A DNA stretch of 64,000 bases. Source: a virus. Position numbers and translations under genes: made by a program. The number at the start of each line of letters is the position of its first letter. Positions within the stretch are counted from its first letter, which is position 1. The notes beneath the pieces are model-generated. The model was given only the letters and a program-made list of their open reading frames with translations, ran no database searches and was not told where the DNA came from. Shown one piece after another: positions 14,190 to 61,718 of this stretch. The stretch is taken from IMG/VR virus record IMGVR_UViG_3300033273_000374, positions 64,001 through 128,000 of that record, one strand, 5' to 3'.

Positions 14190-14263
14190 TGGCAGAGGAT
14201 GTAGGAGTCGAACCCACGCCTGCAGGGTTGGAGCCTGCTGTGCTACCATAACACTTATCCCCT
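14190..14263 (-). tRNA. tRNA-Trp (CCA)
   Basis: A full cloverleaf of 74 nt with encoded 3' CCA. The acceptor AGGGGAT pairs with ATCCTCT, the discriminator is G and the anticodon loop is CTCCAAC, giving CCA. The T loop is TTCGACT. It lies just downstream of the HAD-family gene on the same strand, ahead of the bidirectional terminator. Confidence 0.95.
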
Positions 14264-28180: not shown

Positions 28181-28256
28181 TGGTGACCCCTACGGGACTC
28201 GAACCCGTGTTTCTGCCGTGAAAGGGCAGCGTCCTAGACCGCTAGACGAAGGGGCC
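28181..28256 (-). tRNA. tRNA-Glu (TTC)
   Basis: A 76-nt cloverleaf with encoded CCA. Acceptor GGCCCCT pairs with AGGGGTC, anticodon loop CTTTCAC gives TTC and the T loop is TTCGAGT. Its 5' end overlaps the last 15 bp of the radical SAM gene, whose stop codon lies inside the tRNA. Confidence 0.95.
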
Positions 28257-29624
28257 GGTGATTTCAGGAAGGTAATCCTGCAATTTGATATTTCTATTTA
28301 CGTCTAATTTATTGTTAAATTCAAAAAACATTTTCAATACATTGTAATCAATATCGTTATTTCTAACAGTGTCAAGTATGTGGTTTACACATGTGTTAAA
28401 ATTATGATCAGTTTTGTAACTAGACGTTGACACTAATTTTTCACAGTCTGTGATTACTGCAGTTTTGTTTGGGTGATTTCCAAACCACAAGTATGATGGT
28501 TCATCTACCCAGTTAATTAATACAGTGGCATTTGGATATTGTGTGTTTAAATAGTTAACCAATGGATATAGCCTAGCTACATTGTATATACTTACACTTA
28601 TATTGAAACAAACCACCCATTGACTGTTAAGTGTACGGACGTTTTTGGCTAGTTTATTCCAAGTTATTGGATAGCGTATGTAATACAGTGCATCTGCAAA
28701 TCCATCAACACTTACAATAAACTCAACATTAGTAAAGTGTTTAATTACATCCAAAAACTTTTTAGGTAAAACAAAGGCATTTGTGTTTATCTGCAATAAG
28801 AAATCAGTGCGGTTTTGTTCAATACATTCTTTTAAAAAGTTTATAAATTCATTGCTTATAACAGGCTCGCCTCCTGCAACATACAAACGTTTTACATTTG
28901 GTATATCTACAATTGCAAAATCTGTTGGAGGCGATAGTCCAACAAGAGTGTCTGTTAAGCCTAGGTTGTAAAACTCTTTGTCTAACATATGGCTATCGCC
29001 CGGGCAACAAATTCTGCACTGTGCATTACATCTATTGCCTGTGCGAATATCATAGTCTAACACAGTAGTGTTATCAATAAATTGCTCAACACTGCGAAAA
29101 CCTGTAAGTTCTACCATTTGTTTTGTTCTATGTTGACGTGGACTAGGTAAACTAGCAGTTTCTCGTGTGGTGCAAATTTCACAATGTGCAACAGGATTGC
29201 CTGCAATCATGTCCTGCCTAATACCATTCATTATATCATTGTTGTAGTTAAAACTTTTTGTTGTAAGCAGTTTGTTTTGATAGCAACAAAATCTGTATGC
29301 TTCTCCATCATGGTTTTGCACTAGAGCACCAAATGCTGCACCACAAAAACTTTTGTTTTCTTCAAGGTATTGCATCACAGGGTGCTGGCCTATGCTGGAC
29401 AAAAAAGCAGGATCAGCACTGTCAAGTTCAATCAACTGTGCATCACTTGCTATGTCAAGTAGTTCTTGACTAGTTATATCATAATGACTGGTATGATATA
29501 CACCTGCTTGTATTTTTGTGTGTGCATCGAGCACTCCACAATATTCTAAATTGTGACTATGTGCAATAGTTTGTGCAGAATAACCGGCTTGTTCACTGCC
29601 GTCACCTATACAAATTATTAGCAT
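28242..29624 (-). CDS. Radical SAM enzyme with extra Cys clusters
   Basis: 460 residues. The radical SAM motif C199-x3-C203-x2-C206 (RCNAQCRICC) and AGGEP (about 250-254) are clear. Before it lie C113-C114 and C148-x2-C151 (HCEIC), possible auxiliary-cluster ligands, as in SPASM/twitch peptide-modifying enzymes. The N-terminal 100 residues (IICIGDGSEQAGYSAQTIA) are unlike typical SPASM proteins. The substrate is unknown. An AGGAG site precedes the ATG, and the 3' end runs 15 bp into tRNA-Glu. Confidence 0.85.
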   Translation of the reverse strand: MLIICIGDGSEQAGYSAQTIAHSHNLEYCGVLDAHTKIQAGVYHTSHYDITSQELLDIASDAQLIELDSADPAFLSSIGQHPVMQYLEENKSFCGAAFGALVQNHDGEAYRFCCYQNKLLTTKSFNYNNDIMNGIRQDMIAGNPVAHCEICTTRETASLPSPRQHRTKQMVELTGFRSVEQFIDNTTVLDYDIRTGNRCNAQCRICCPGDSHMLDKEFYNLGLTDTLVGLSPPTDFAIVDIPNVKRLYVAGGEPVISNEFINFLKECIEQNRTDFLLQINTNAFVLPKKFLDVIKHFTNVEFIVSVDGFADALYYIRYPITWNKLAKNVRTLNSQWVVCFNISVSIYNVARLYPLVNYLNTQYPNATVLINWVDEPSYLWFGNHPNKTAVITDCEKLVSTSSYKTDHNFNTCVNHILDTVRNNDIDYNVLKMFFEFNNKLDVNRNIKLQDYLPEITGPFV

Positions 29625-29738
29625 TTATAGTTCTCCTGGGCACCATCCATTCAATTATTTTACCTGTTAAATGGAAAACAGGATTGTATTTAGTGGAAGT
29701 AAGCGAGATTAACTAACCTCTAGACAAAAGGGCTATTA

Positions 29739-29813
29739 TGGCTCCTCAAGATGGATTCGAACCACCGACCGGATGGTTAACAGCCGTCTGCTCTGCCACT
29801 GAGCTACTGAGGA
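29739..29813 (-). tRNA. tRNA-Asn (GTT)
   Basis: A 75-nt cloverleaf with encoded CCA. Acceptor TCCTCAG pairs with TTGAGGA, discriminator G, anticodon loop CTGTTAA gives GTT, T loop TTCGAAT. One A/C mismatch sits in the anticodon stem. Confidence 0.93.
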
Positions 29814-29821
29814 ATAAAACT

Positions 29822-29895
29822 TGGTGGAGAATAGGAGAGTCGAACTCCTGATTCTAGAATGCAAATCTAGCGTGATCCCACTTCACTAATTCCCC
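29822..29895 (-). tRNA. tRNA-Ala (TGC)
   Basis: A 74-nt cloverleaf with encoded CCA. Acceptor GGGGAAT pairs with ATTCTCC and contains the G3:U70 pair that defines alanine tRNAs. Anticodon loop TTTGCAT gives TGC. Confidence 0.92.
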
Positions 29896-29901
29896 ATTGT
29901 G

Positions 29902-30111
29902 TTATGTGTCTAGAGGAAGTTTGCTATGCTCATCAATCAAGGCTATAACTTCATCTAAACTGCCACAGATAATTTTTACACCTGCCCAATCTTCTTCACT
30001 GTTGCGACCACGTGCCTCAACAACGAAACCATTTGTTACACGCCTAACTTCAATGGTTTCATCTACTTTAACAAGGCCTTCTTGTTTAAGGCTGGTTGTG
30101 TTGTGTGACAT
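29902..30111 (-). CDS. Small hypothetical protein, 69 aa
   Basis: Soluble, acidic, beta-alpha-like pattern (VKVDETIEVRRVTNGFVVEARG, in part; LDEVIALIDEHSKL). No family recognised. A perfect late promoter (30122-30129) and a GGAG ribosome site precede the ATG. It is embedded in the tRNA cluster. Confidence 0.7.
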   Translation of the reverse strand: MSHNTTSLKQEGLVKVDETIEVRRVTNGFVVEARGRNSEEDWAGVKIICGSLDEVIALIDEHSKLPLDT

Positions 30112-30121
30112 TCGTTACTCC

Positions 30122-30129
30122 TATTTATA
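30122..30129 (-). promoter_or_regulatory. T4-type late promoter (TATAAATA)
   Basis: A perfect octamer 10 bp upstream of the ATG at 30111; starts immediately downstream of the tRNA-Asp 3' end. Confidence 0.7.
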
Positions 30130-30131
30130 TG

Positions 30132-30207
30132 TGGCGGGAATGACCGGGCTCGAACCGGCGACCTTTGGCGTGACAGGCCAACGCTCTAACCAATTCAGCA
30201 CACACCC
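30132..30207 (-). tRNA. tRNA-Asp (GTC), slightly irregular
   Basis: 76 nt with encoded CCA and the Asp discriminator G. Anticodon loop CTGTCAC gives GTC and the T loop is TTCGAGC. The acceptor GGGTGTG / CATTCCC has a T/T mismatch and a G/T wobble, and only one base joins the acceptor to the D stem. It may be functional but is less perfect than its neighbours. Confidence 0.85.
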
Positions 30208-30215
30208 ACAAATTG

Positions 30216-30293
30216 TGGTCTCGGTGGTAGGATTCGAACCTACGATCTCTTGCTCCCAAAGCAAGCGGATTAACCAGACTTTCCTACACCGAG
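30216..30293 (-). tRNA. tRNA-Pro (TGG)
   Basis: A 78-nt cloverleaf with encoded CCA and a perfect acceptor CTCGGTG / CACCGAG including the C1-G72 pair typical of Pro. Anticodon loop TTTGGGA gives TGG. Confidence 0.94.
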
Positions 30294-30295
30294 TT

Positions 30296-30388
30296 TGGCG
30301 GACAGGGAGGGATTCGAACCCTCGGAACGATTAACCATCGTTCAATGGATTAGCAATCCACCGCCTTCGACCACTCAGCCACCTATCC
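30296..30388 (-). tRNA. tRNA-Ser (GCT)
   Basis: 93 nt with the long variable arm of class II tRNAs. Acceptor GGATAGG / CCTGTCC, discriminator G, anticodon loop TTGCTAA gives GCT, CCA encoded. Confidence 0.94.
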
Positions 30389-30394
30389 TTGTTG

Positions 30395-30553
30395 TTAAGC
30401 CTTTGCTAGACTACGCAAAAGTTTATCTACTGCAGCCTGTGCTGTTTTACGATCTACACCTTCTGTGCGTTGTACAAATGCAACTGCTTTTTCAACACTC
30501 AATCGTAATCCGTATAGTGCTTCGTGTGCGGCATAATCAACATCTACGTGCAT
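30395..30553 (-). CDS. Small hypothetical protein, 52 aa
   Basis: ATG 30553 to TAA 30395, with a GGAGAT ribosome site. The sequence is helical and charged (HEALYGLRLSVEKAVAFVQ; ending RSLAKA). No family recognised. A TTGACA promoter lies upstream at 30580-30608 and the gene ends 7 bp before tRNA-Ser, so the tRNAs downstream may share its transcript. Confidence 0.7.
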   Translation of the reverse strand: MHVDVDYAAHEALYGLRLSVEKAVAFVQRTEGVDRKTAQAAVDKLLRSLAKA

Positions 30554-30579
30554 AACAATCTCCTAATGTTTATTGTATT

Positions 30580-30608
30580 ATAATACAACAGAAAGTAAGA
30601 GATGTCAA
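30580..30608 (-). promoter_or_regulatory. Sigma70-like promoter in the tRNA cluster
   Basis: -35 TTGACA at 30608-30603, -10 TATTAT at 30585-30580, spacer 17 bp. It would transcribe the 52-residue gene and then tRNA-Ser, Pro and Asp. Confidence 0.6.
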
Positions 30609-30618
30609 TAGAAAAATT

Positions 30619-30651
30619 TGGTGCCTGTAGAGAGGATCAAACTCTCACTCA
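30619..30651 (-). pseudogene. 3' fragment of a tRNA-Leu-like gene
   Basis: 33 nt matching the 3' end (T arm, acceptor strand, CCA) of the complete tRNA-Leu that begins 10 bp upstream on the same strand, with about six differences. It has a T stem (GAGAG / CTCTC) and a TACAGGC-A-CCA end but no D arm or anticodon arm. It looks like a partial tandem duplication or the scar of a recombination event. Confidence 0.75.
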
Positions 30652-30660
30652 AAGCAAATA

Positions 30661-30745
30661 TGGTGCCCGTAGAGAGAATTGAACTCCCACTCCGTAAGGA
30701 AACGGTACCTAAAACCGTCGCGTCTACCTATTCCGCCATACGGGC
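30661..30745 (-). tRNA. tRNA-Leu (TAG)
   Basis: 85 nt, class II with a long variable arm, encoded CCA. Acceptor GCCCGTA / TACGGGC, anticodon loop TTTAGGT gives TAG, discriminator A as expected for Leu. Confidence 0.94.
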
Positions 30746-30796
30746 ATGTGTGGTGTGTTTGACCCTAGTATAGTGTGGTTGGCCCTATTAAAATTA

Positions 30797-30873
30797 TGGT
30801 GCTGGTGGAGAGACTCGAACTCCCAACATTCTGATTACAAAACAGACGCTCTACCAATTGGAGCTACACCAGC
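30797..30873 (-). tRNA. tRNA-Thr (TGT)
   Basis: A 77-nt cloverleaf, encoded CCA, acceptor GCTGGTG / CACCAGC, anticodon loop TTTGTAA gives TGT, T loop TTCGAGT. It lies 6 bp downstream of the endolysin stop. Confidence 0.95.
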
Positions 30874-53627: not shown

Positions 53628-53939
53628 CTATTCAGATGGTTCTAGTCTAACTTCAAGCGGAAACCCTTCGTTACGAGCTCGCAACAGTACCTCTACACCT
53701 TTCTGTTCTGCTATTTCAAATGGCATAACAGCAACAACACCTGCACCACTTTCGCTTATTTCCATTGCTTTATCAACTGCTGGATCTTGCATGTAGTCAA
53801 ATGTTGTCTGTAAAGTATCAATTACAAACTCAAAAGTGGTTTGGTCATCATTGAGATAGATAACCTTGTAATCACTAGGTGGTTGTAATTCAATGCTGCG
53901 TTCTCTTACTTGGGTTTTCGTCAATTCTTGTTGACTCAT
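53628..53939 (-). CDS. clpS: ClpS-like Clp protease adaptor
   Basis: 103 residues from ATG 53939. ClpS docks on ClpA and delivers proteins with destabilising N-terminal residues. PPSDYKVIYLNDDQTTFEFV matches the family, with Asn30, Asp31 and Asp32 of the N-degron pocket. FEIAEQKGVEVLLRARNEGF follows. The His that contacts the substrate amino group (E. coli His66) is replaced by Ser62. It is preceded by an AGGAG site and a strong hairpin, downstream of hsp20. Confidence 0.9.
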   Translation of the reverse strand: MSQQELTKTQVRERSIELQPPSDYKVIYLNDDQTTFEFVIDTLQTTFDYMQDPAVDKAMEISESGAGVVAVMPFEIAEQKGVEVLLRARNEGFPLEVRLEPSE

Positions 53940-53955
53940 TTTCACTCCTGTTGTA

Positions 53956-53983
53956 ACAGTAGGAGAGTTTCCCCTCCTACTGT
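53956..53983 (-). promoter_or_regulatory. 10-bp hairpin in the hsp20-clpS gap
   Basis: ACAGTAGGAG and CTCCTACTGT pair perfectly across an 8-nt loop, immediately upstream of the clpS ribosome site. No T-run follows, so it may be an RNA-processing, stability or attenuation element. Confidence 0.55.
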
Positions 53984-53995
53984 ACTTATCAAAAA

Positions 53996-54424
53996 TTAGC
54001 CGTCAATTGCAATCTTGCGCGGTTTCTTTTCTTCAGGAATAATACGCTCTAGTGCAATATAGAGCATACCGTTCTCAAGTTTAGCACCGTTAACGACTAC
54101 ATCATCTGCTAGGGTAAAATTGCGCTTGAACTTGCGTTGTGCAATACCACGATGTATAAAGCCAATTTTTTCATCATTGTCTTGTGGTTCGTGAGTGATT
54201 GTTAACACGCCTTCTGCAACTTCAATTTCCAAGTCTTCCAGTTTTACACCTGCTAGTGCAATTTCAATTTGGAAATTGTTACCGTCTTTTACAATGTTGT
54301 AAGGTGGGTATCCACTGCTGGTGGCTTGATGTTCTAGATAACGATGCATGTTATCAAACATACGATCAAAGCCTACAGCGTAAGGTGTTAGTTTATTGAT
54401 GTCGAGTGAAGTTAATCTTGTCAT
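53996..54424 (-). CDS. Small heat-shock protein Hsp20/IbpA-like
   Basis: 142 residues. The alpha-crystallin domain (about 42-132) includes YNIVKDGNNFQIEIALAGV, VAEGVLTITHE, FIHRGIAQRKFKRNFTLAD and the conserved LENGMLYIALER. ATP-independent holdase that keeps unfolded proteins soluble. Its leader carries a ROSE-like thermometer hairpin at the ribosome site (54428-54455). Behind a late promoter (54539-54545) and downstream of rpsU. Confidence 0.93.
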   Translation of the reverse strand: MTRLTSLDINKLTPYAVGFDRMFDNMHRYLEHQATSSGYPPYNIVKDGNNFQIEIALAGVKLEDLEIEVAEGVLTITHEPQDNDEKIGFIHRGIAQRKFKRNFTLADDVVVNGAKLENGMLYIALERIIPEEKKPRKIAIDG

Positions 54425-54427
54425 TTG

Positions 54428-54455
54428 TATATCTCCTTATAAAGCAAGATTATAT
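54428..54455 (-). promoter_or_regulatory. ROSE-like RNA thermometer hairpin of hsp20
   Basis: In the RNA, ATCTTGCTT pairs with the Shine-Dalgarno arm AAGGAGAT around a UAU loop, with one G bulged and one U/G pair. The UUGCU opposite AGGA with a bulged G is the hallmark of ROSE elements that control small heat-shock genes in alphaproteobacteria. TAT/ATA extends the stem. A second hairpin (AGTGG/CCACT, about 54487-54506) lies upstream, as in multi-hairpin ROSE leaders. Confidence 0.75.
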
Positions 54456-54538
54456 GTTTTAGACCCCCTAAGGCAGTCCAGTGTTTAGTGGCTAACCGTT
54501 GACCACTGCGTGTGTATTAAGGCACAACCCTCCAGAAA

Positions 54539-54545
54539 TATTTAT
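54539..54545 (-). promoter_or_regulatory. T4-type late promoter (ATAAATA)
   Basis: GATAAATA just before the end of rpsU; gives hsp20 a leader of about 105 nt, enough for the thermometer. Confidence 0.6.
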
Positions 54546-54547
54546 CT

Positions 54548-54772
54548 CTATTGATTGTCAATTTGAGCTTTTTTCTTAAGCCAGCGTTTGCGACCTGCTG
54601 CTTTTGCACGTTTACGTTGTTCACTAGGCTTCACATAGTGCGTTCTATCACGCAATTCCTGCAACACGCCTTCGTCTTGTAAACGGCGTTTGAGCTTTCG
54701 CCACGCACGGTTGATGTCGTTGTTGCGAACTTCAACAGTCAACCCTTGCTTTGCTCTTGGTTCTCTAGCCAT
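54548..54772 (-). CDS. rpsU: Ribosomal protein bS21
   Basis: 74 residues, typical bS21 length. VRNNDINRAWRKLKRRLQDE and KPSEQRKRAKAAGRKRWLKK match the family. bS21 sits near the anti-Shine-Dalgarno region of 16S rRNA and affects initiation. Phage bS21 genes, including in pelagiphages, have been reported and may enter host ribosomes. A consensus promoter (54860-54888) lies in the upstream gene, 87 bp before the ATG, so rpsU can be expressed early and strongly. Confidence 0.93.
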   Translation of the reverse strand: MAREPRAKQGLTVEVRNNDINRAWRKLKRRLQDEGVLQELRDRTHYVKPSEQRKRAKAAGRKRWLKKKAQIDNQ

Positions 54773-61452: not shown

Positions 61453-61718
61453 AGGTGCCGGATTCTGTTTCGAGGCTCCGGCGGGCCCAGTGGATTATGC
61501 CGCTAAAGGCATATCCTCATCTGCAAAATTATCGTTTGCGTTTGTTTTGTTTGCTTGATTTACGGTCATCGCCTACCGGTAACTCCACGTTCTCTATTGC
61601 ATCAGTCGATCCCTATCACCCCCTCAAAGCACACTCAGCGAATGTGTTTTAAGTGAATGGTGGAGGTGGGGAGAATTGAACTCCCGTCCTGCCTGCCGTC
61701 AATTGGCTTCAACGTTAC
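61430..61718 (-). ncRNA. ssrA: Circularly permuted two-piece tmRNA
   Basis: The tRNA 3' part comes first: T arm GGGAG-TTCAATT-CTCCC, acceptor CACCTCC, A, CCA ending at 61658. After a 34-nt spacer (61624-61657) the coding piece begins at 61623 with GGGGGTG, which pairs with CACCTCC through a G3:U70 alanine pair. The tag frame ends TAA at 61495-61497 and encodes ANDNFADEDMPLAA (or five residues more if the first GCA, 61554, is the resume codon). The order is that of alphaproteobacterial permuted tmRNAs. It rescues stalled ribosomes and tags proteins for Clp proteases. Late promoter at 61724-61731, terminator at 61428. Confidence 0.93.

Follow-up and report, generated by a model that had tools for sequence, protein, structure and literature searches.

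Organization of the hsp20 locus and its leader

The stretch of DNA analysed here (the window, 64 kb) covers bases 64001-128000 of the 202,913-base record of a large marine phage and encodes a small heat-shock chaperone, Hsp20. Based on the Pfam matches, the gene order on the minus strand is an rpsU-like gene for ribosomal protein bS21 (54548-54772; PF01165, E 1.7e-17), the leader, hsp20 (53996-54424, 142 aa; PF00011, E 3.6e-17; PHROG 432), clpS for the Clp protease adaptor (53628-53945; PF02617, E 5.6e-21) and an IMPDH-like gene. The AUG of hsp20 is at 54424-54422 and the leader occupies 54425-54547, next to the end of the bS21 gene at 54548, so the extent given by an earlier note, made from the sequence of this DNA alone, is correct. 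The window Hsp20 is placed in a fully supported (100%) clade comprising 11 phage rows, in a tree calculated from few columns, and no dnaK was found in the window's own record. A strong hairpin with no clear U run lies between hsp20 and clpS (53956-53983), and may represent an mRNA end or a processing site.

The leader ends in a ROSE-like element (54423-54483, minus strand, as are all features of the leader). Its hairpin I (54460-54480) is predicted to consist of a stem, a U-G pair, a bulged G, CC/GG and a short loop. In hairpin II the anti-Shine-Dalgarno strand AUCUUGCUU (54442-54450), which holds the ROSE UUGCU motif with its bulged G and reads UUGCUU in relatives, faces the Shine-Dalgarno AAGGAGAU (54431-54438), and the model structure pairs the two as U-A, C-G, U-A, U-G, bulged G, C-G, U-A and U-A. 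The earlier note had proposed this ROSE arrangement of the hsp20 ribosome site, opposite a strand with one bulged G, and an upstream hairpin; the former is confirmed in the sequence and the latter is found at 54480-54460, with covariation. The window combines three features of ROSE-type thermometers, i.e. U(U/C)GCU-Shine-Dalgarno pairing with a bulged G, an upstream hairpin and a small heat-shock gene downstream (Pfam HSP20). Comparison strongly supports the ROSE-like layout, its association with hsp20 and its origin from a phage. The core motif occurs only once in the 202,913-base record. The folding energy of the whole leader is unremarkable (z -0.85) and was discarded as uninformative.

Other features surround the element. 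Codons 2-5 of hsp20 include CAAGAUUA (54413-54420), a predicted competitor for the anti-Shine-Dalgarno strand (54452-54445) according to fold prediction. Just past the bS21 stop codon lies GATAAATA (54539-54546), a putative late promoter octamer of the T4/cyanophage type, proposed from its sequence and from octamer enrichment. The 5' part of the leader is occupied by a conserved two-hairpin motif (54487-54530), GGGU-hairpin-CG-hairpin with loops NNUAAUA and CAACGGUUA, recognized by sequence comparison.

Searches with Rfam and a phage covariance model

The element lies outside the Rfam ROSE families as they are curated. At the gathering cut-offs no ROSE was found in the 64-kb window or in 19 related loci, and the two families named for a check in the earlier note, ROSE (RF00435) and ROSE_2 (RF01832), were absent among the three Rfam matches up to E=10 in the 221 bases at 54380-54600. 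The same permissive scan ranked ROSE_3 first of 4227 families, at 16.3 bits (E 0.36) against a cut-off of 43, and its alignment on the window leader spans the full model with the AUG in register. Hence the assignment to the ROSE type stands for the architecture and the link to hsp20, which are supported by comparison, but not for Rfam membership at the curated cut-off.

ROSE_3 scores below the cut-off were also obtained among the 16 sources searched, e.g. 34.1 bits for Melnitz-3, 26.8 for C48C1, 33.6 for locus L152 and 26.1 for locus L109; the relative L204 scores 34.1 bits. One locus, L209 ('Pseudomonas phage Y7', OQ572409.1), reaches the gathering level with 69.2 bits and has the same layout as the window element. 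The record is marked UNVERIFIED and its Hsp20 groups with alphaproteobacteria in the protein tree; the sequence is probably not phage DNA.

We built a covariance model, R1, from 10 phage leaders with one loop and linker length (alignment A4), including L004, L061 and L076 of the 80-locus set described below and excluding the window. A4 was used because the first alignment and A2, A3 and A5 were faulty: RNAalifold recovered only five pairs from the first, since MAFFT had gapped the 3' arm, and the other three have faults of the same kind. No count rests on A2 or A3, which contain a chance match (L016:2935). Before alignment we dropped L194, which matches by chance within an ORF, as well as L057 and one L002 match, which overlap other matches.

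R1 was run over the window and 80 hsp20 loci (493,831 bases, both strands) and gave 80 matches up to E=1. The window has a single match, at 42.2 bits (E 5.8e-7), which is the element itself (54483-54423). The loci have one match each except L055, which is cut at its start, giving 79 of 80. By position all matches lie immediately ahead of either hsp20 or a phasin-like gene and none elsewhere. R1 detects such leaders where Rfam does not.

Conservation and compensatory changes

A protein search gave 80 viral relatives of hsp20. Among the 79 that have a start, 65 carry UUGCUU no more than 45 nt away from it and 14 do not; in these 14, hsp20 is the second gene after a short phasin-like gene and the element precedes the first gene. 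The phasin-like gene, named by eye, encodes 65 aa (L136:4207-4404) with no Pfam match, and is also seen in L005-L013, L015, L020-L022 and L024. Sister contigs of its carriers, L016-L018, have the element directly at hsp20.

The structure is maintained with strong compensatory changes. Among 46 distinct sequences it is 96.2% paired, with a covariation score of 0.42 compared to 0.12 for shuffled alignments (none of 500 reached it) and no more than 0.05 for slid ones. Both partners have changed in five of the six outer pairs of hairpin I, in this set and likewise in a set of 94 sequences, while five of the eight pairs of hairpin II are invariant among the 46. The larger set, which covers phages, isolates, bacteria and the leaders of dnaK and groES, is 94.5% paired and has 244 doubly changed cells vs 73 when shuffled. 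In its hairpin II the U-A adjoining C-G is replaced by A-U in seven sequences and by C-G in three, and the U-G by C-G in 10. Both alignments, A6 and A8, were fitted to the model and their pair counts therefore lean towards it. We also made a model-independent, anchor-based count over 96 unique elements, which still contain a few chance or overlapping matches (L194, L002, L057, L016:2935): the arms of hairpin I are paired at 0.80, compared to 0.52 shuffled (maximum 0.57 of 200) and 0.35-0.39 slid. Judged by this comparison of sequences, the leader is a real and conserved ROSE-like element of phages.

The element at dnaK, groES and other phage loci

A pattern scan of viral contigs gave at least 123 sites in at least 120 stretches. 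Among the matches listed, 74 are ahead of an open frame for Hsp20 and others ahead of one for DnaK or GroES, and the remainder look mostly like chance matches inside genes. We found that R1 marks the start of dnaK in 69 of 80 viral dnaK loci (hand-counted, among the matches listed); the 51 other R1 matches listed for these loci appear to lie just behind dnaK, where L150 has hsp20. By pattern the motif is present in 75 of the 80 among the matches listed, with a bulged G in 55 and a bulged A in 20. The A-bulge form UCUUACUU, e.g. in L324, L326, L348 and L357, shows that the ROSE bulge varies in nature. Of 80 groEL loci, 65 have a recognizable groES frame, and the motif is directly ahead of it in 38. 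The strict pattern misses the other 27, five of which (L413, L414, L424, L425 and L427) reflect a wrong upstream start, as R1 marks them. Overall, the element, which the earlier note proposed for one gene, serves generally as the leader of hsp20 and dnaK in phages and of groES in many cases.

Among 14 virus records behind the dnaK and groEL loci, five have a terminase and each of these is at least 340 kb long. Pfam identified ClpX, DnaK and ClpS in L150, and bS21, IMPDH, GroES, GroEL and ClpS in L166, with elements at two genes in each. Such proteostasis clusters, ClpX-DnaK-Hsp20-ClpS in L150 and GroES-GroEL-Hsp20-ClpS beside bS21 and IMPDH in L166, resemble the neighbourhood in the window.

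The element is widespread among phage isolates. Relatives of hsp20 were found by tblastn in 509 of 50,697 phage records, of which 24 were sampled; with the UNVERIFIED Y7 set apart, R1 matches 20 of the remaining 23 at the start of hsp20 (E<0.05). S-CAM1 has a weak match only (E 0.42), S-TIM5 and HTVC115P have none, and in S-SSM4 the AUG behind the match lies upstream of the start annotated for the gene. The isolates with hsp20 relatives that we examined include Pelagibacter, Methylophilales, Prochlorococcus and Synechococcus phages and a Pseudomonas jumbo phage, and carriers include the well-known marine isolates P-SSM4, HTVC008M and S-CRM01.

Bacterial relatives and promoters

The same element, as detected by R1, precedes hsp20 in SAR11 and other marine alphaproteobacteria. 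Of the best 80 bacterial hsp20 relatives, 68 are matched by R1 (E<=3e-4), and most of these 68 are of SAR11 type or from other alphaproteobacteria of the sea. Eleven bacterial genomes were searched whole with R1: in nine the strong match is the hsp20 leader, and two have no strong match. Three of the 68 matched loci, L210, L211 and L212 (binned as Parcubacteria, Flavobacteriales and Pelagibacter), have an hsp20 placed among phages by the protein tree; they are probably phage contigs in bacterial bins.

Phage and host copies differ in what lies upstream. Of 248 phage elements, 121 have the motif NATAAATA at a distance of 10-45 nt upstream of hairpin I, with a peak at 17-20, compared to 13 that have it in the adjoining interval. 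It is present in 3 of 201 control genes and in 1 of 47 host elements. Conversely, CTTG[A/T] is found upstream of 42 of 47 host elements and 35 of 248 phage elements. NATAAATA is described as the T4/cyanophage late promoter motif in the accessible text of two papers (PMC2984593, PMC2988020), and the host CTTG[A/T] resembles the -35 consensus of sigma-32 promoters as given in passages of a third (PMC3669281). About half of the phage copies appear to be at a T4-type late promoter, and the marine alphaproteobacterial copies behind heat-shock-type promoters, if these motifs function as such. In the window the octamer GATAAATA (54546-54539) is further upstream because the two-hairpin motif intervenes.

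Predicted masking of the Shine-Dalgarno

Whether folding hides the Shine-Dalgarno depends on where the RNA is made to end. When the leader was folded up to the AUG at 20 C, the median unpaired fraction of the Shine-Dalgarno was predicted to be 0.10 for 62 elements (L194 and L016:2935 dropped, both overlapping L002 matches kept), while the control genes (150 of 193) gave 0.51. Adding 15 nt of coding sequence changes the medians to 0.61 and 0.50, respectively, so that no clear excess of masking over control genes is predicted. The window copy behaves likewise: folding over temperature, which the earlier note had suggested as a check, leaves its Shine-Dalgarno masked when the RNA ends at the AUG (predicted unpaired 0.16 at 25 C, 0.25 at 42 C and 0.51 at 60 C) but predicted open, at 0.82-0.86 over 5-42 C, with 15 nt of coding sequence and hence codons 2-5 included. 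In this longer RNA at 20 C the anti-Shine-Dalgarno is predicted to pair at 0.69 with codons 2-5 and at 0.02 with the Shine-Dalgarno. L209 with 15 nt of its gene is predicted to open from 0.05 to 0.16 and 0.42 at 25, 42 and 60 C. The nearest-neighbour energy model lacks the special pairs reported for ROSE hairpins.

The effect of the coding start exceeds general A-richness in these predictions. The mean exposure of the Shine-Dalgarno is 0.57 with the elements' own coding starts and 0.29-0.36 (replicate means) with starts swapped in from other phage genes. With coding sequence, the predicted exposure is 0.31 on average for 13 host leaders and 0.63 for 60 phage dnaK leaders. Because the rows are related, we regard the coding-arm effect as a lead and not as proof.

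Proposed working of the leader

We consider it probable, at roughly 75%, that the leader is a ROSE-like RNA thermometer in which hairpin II represses translation of hsp20 and opens on warming; here we infer that the hairpin forms in the cell, represses, and melts within a useful range. The hsp20 leader would end in a cis-acting RNA of hairpin I followed by hairpin II, in which UCUUGCUU would pair with the Shine-Dalgarno AAGGAGA around the bulged G and the U-G pair. At low or normal growth temperature this weak hairpin would bar ribosomes from hsp20, and on warming it would open and the chaperone would be made. In many phages a T4-type late promoter appears to replace the bacterial heat-shock promoter, and translation would therefore be the thermosensitive step that was kept. 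If the leader works this way, the supply of chaperone during infection would be set at translation, by temperature or by misfolded protein, which could be tested in cultured isolates.

The closest known systems are ROSE_3 (RF02523) and the Pseudomonas ibpA thermometers. ROSE_3 likewise has two hairpins, the first with an unpaired G ahead of CC/GG as well as a U-G pair, and in both systems the U(U/C)GCU of hairpin II pairs with the Shine-Dalgarno ahead of a small heat-shock gene. The Pseudomonas ibpA leaders are 61-62 nt long in the available text (PMC3669281), similar to the phage element with about 60 nt. In contrast to these systems, the phage element also precedes dnaK and groES, often follows a late promoter, and has an A bulge in 20 of 75 dnaK leaders. 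Among phage mRNA leaders, lambda cIII and the fourU of SPbeta blyA are reported to respond to temperature (PMC4166951, PMC10586365, accessible parts); neither is of the ROSE type or on a chaperone gene, and lambda cIII works in the opposite sense, being less exposed when hot. The Synechocystis hsp17 and Anabaena thermometers are also in leaders of small heat-shock genes, and one Anabaena case is called ROSE-like in the part of PMC4166951 available. The Synechocystis hsp17 thermometer is a single short hairpin, however, unlike the two-hairpin layout of the cyanophage leaders.

An alternative hypothesis could be that the element is a translational operator read by a protein, chiefly the phage Hsp20, which would repress its own, the dnaK and the groES mRNAs until misfolded protein titrates it away, with temperature at most a second input. 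A common element on hsp20, dnaK and groES would suit one trans-acting reader, and IbpA of E. coli reportedly represses through its own leader. The strong conservation of hairpin I points in the same direction, as Pseudomonas ibpA needs no more than hairpin II for thermoregulation according to the text available (PMC3669281). Known ROSE leaders, on the other hand, function in reporters without their own gene product, as the same accessible text states, and we regard the operator as unlikely.

Quite improbable is a leader without repression at equilibrium, in which the anti-Shine-Dalgarno would pair with codons 2-6, the Shine-Dalgarno would be free, and the leader would permit or tune translation or stabilise the mRNA without sensing temperature. 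The higher exposure predicted with own than with swapped coding starts, and the window copy predicted open at 5-42 C, agree with it. However, pairing with the coding strand leaves the compensatory upkeep of the pairing between UCUUGCUU, with its bulge, and AAGGAGA unexplained, the competing helix would enclose the entire start region in its loop, the host leaders show no excess of exposure, and predictions made without the special ROSE pairs weaken the case for an open Shine-Dalgarno. Chance pairing or a translation enhancer acting by sequence only is hardly credible, for even if the nearly constant anti-Shine-Dalgarno strand leaves little room for covariation in hairpin II, the element stays with whichever gene comes first in the operon, as seen where that is the phasin-like gene, and chance pairing is ruled out by the compensatory changes in hairpin I, the R1 match and the pairing of the arms above shuffled.

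Beyond the thermometer itself, we speculate that large phages might own a heat-shock regulon, with hsp20, dnaK and groESL under the common element and late instead of heat-shock promoters, which would leave thermosensing entirely to translation. Codons 2-6 would have become an alternative partner for the anti-Shine-Dalgarno in phages, forming a one-way latch; this extended proposal is doubtful. The repressing hairpin would form first during transcription. Heat, or the loss of bound Hsp20, would open it, and the coding strand would then capture the anti-Shine-Dalgarno so that the gene stays on. Such a latch, if true, would suit a lytic cycle.

We found no paper on ROSE-like leaders in phages in the collection of open-access papers searched, which has few subscription papers and preprints, so that the result does not prove absence. 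Judging by their titles, the papers in it that contain both 'cyanophage' and 'RNA thermometer' deal with other matters, and the accessible portion of the paper on the S-ShM2 sHSP (PMC5028025) contains none of the words 'untranslated', 'thermosensor' and 'upstream'.

A second conserved motif and other RNA genes

The two-hairpin motif in the 5' part of the leader (54530-54487, minus strand) is found ahead of many phage genes and tRNAs, in the general form GGGU-stem-NNUAAUA-stem-CG-stem-CACGGUUA-stem; it is also in L136, L483, L509, L511, L517 and others. We collected 72 unique instances, in which the two pairs of arms are paired at 0.94 and 0.87, compared to 0.55 and 0.65 shuffled. No Rfam family matched it at E<=1 in seven loci. 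A U run follows some of the second hairpins. There is one copy in the 202,913-base record, and among 10 isolates it was found in one, Melnitz-3, before the gene of the late-transcription coactivator.

The window also encodes a permuted, two-piece tmRNA gene (61495-61718, minus strand; RF04321, 110.3 bits), a cluster of eight tRNA genes (28184-30873, minus strand) and a ninth tRNA at 14193-14263.
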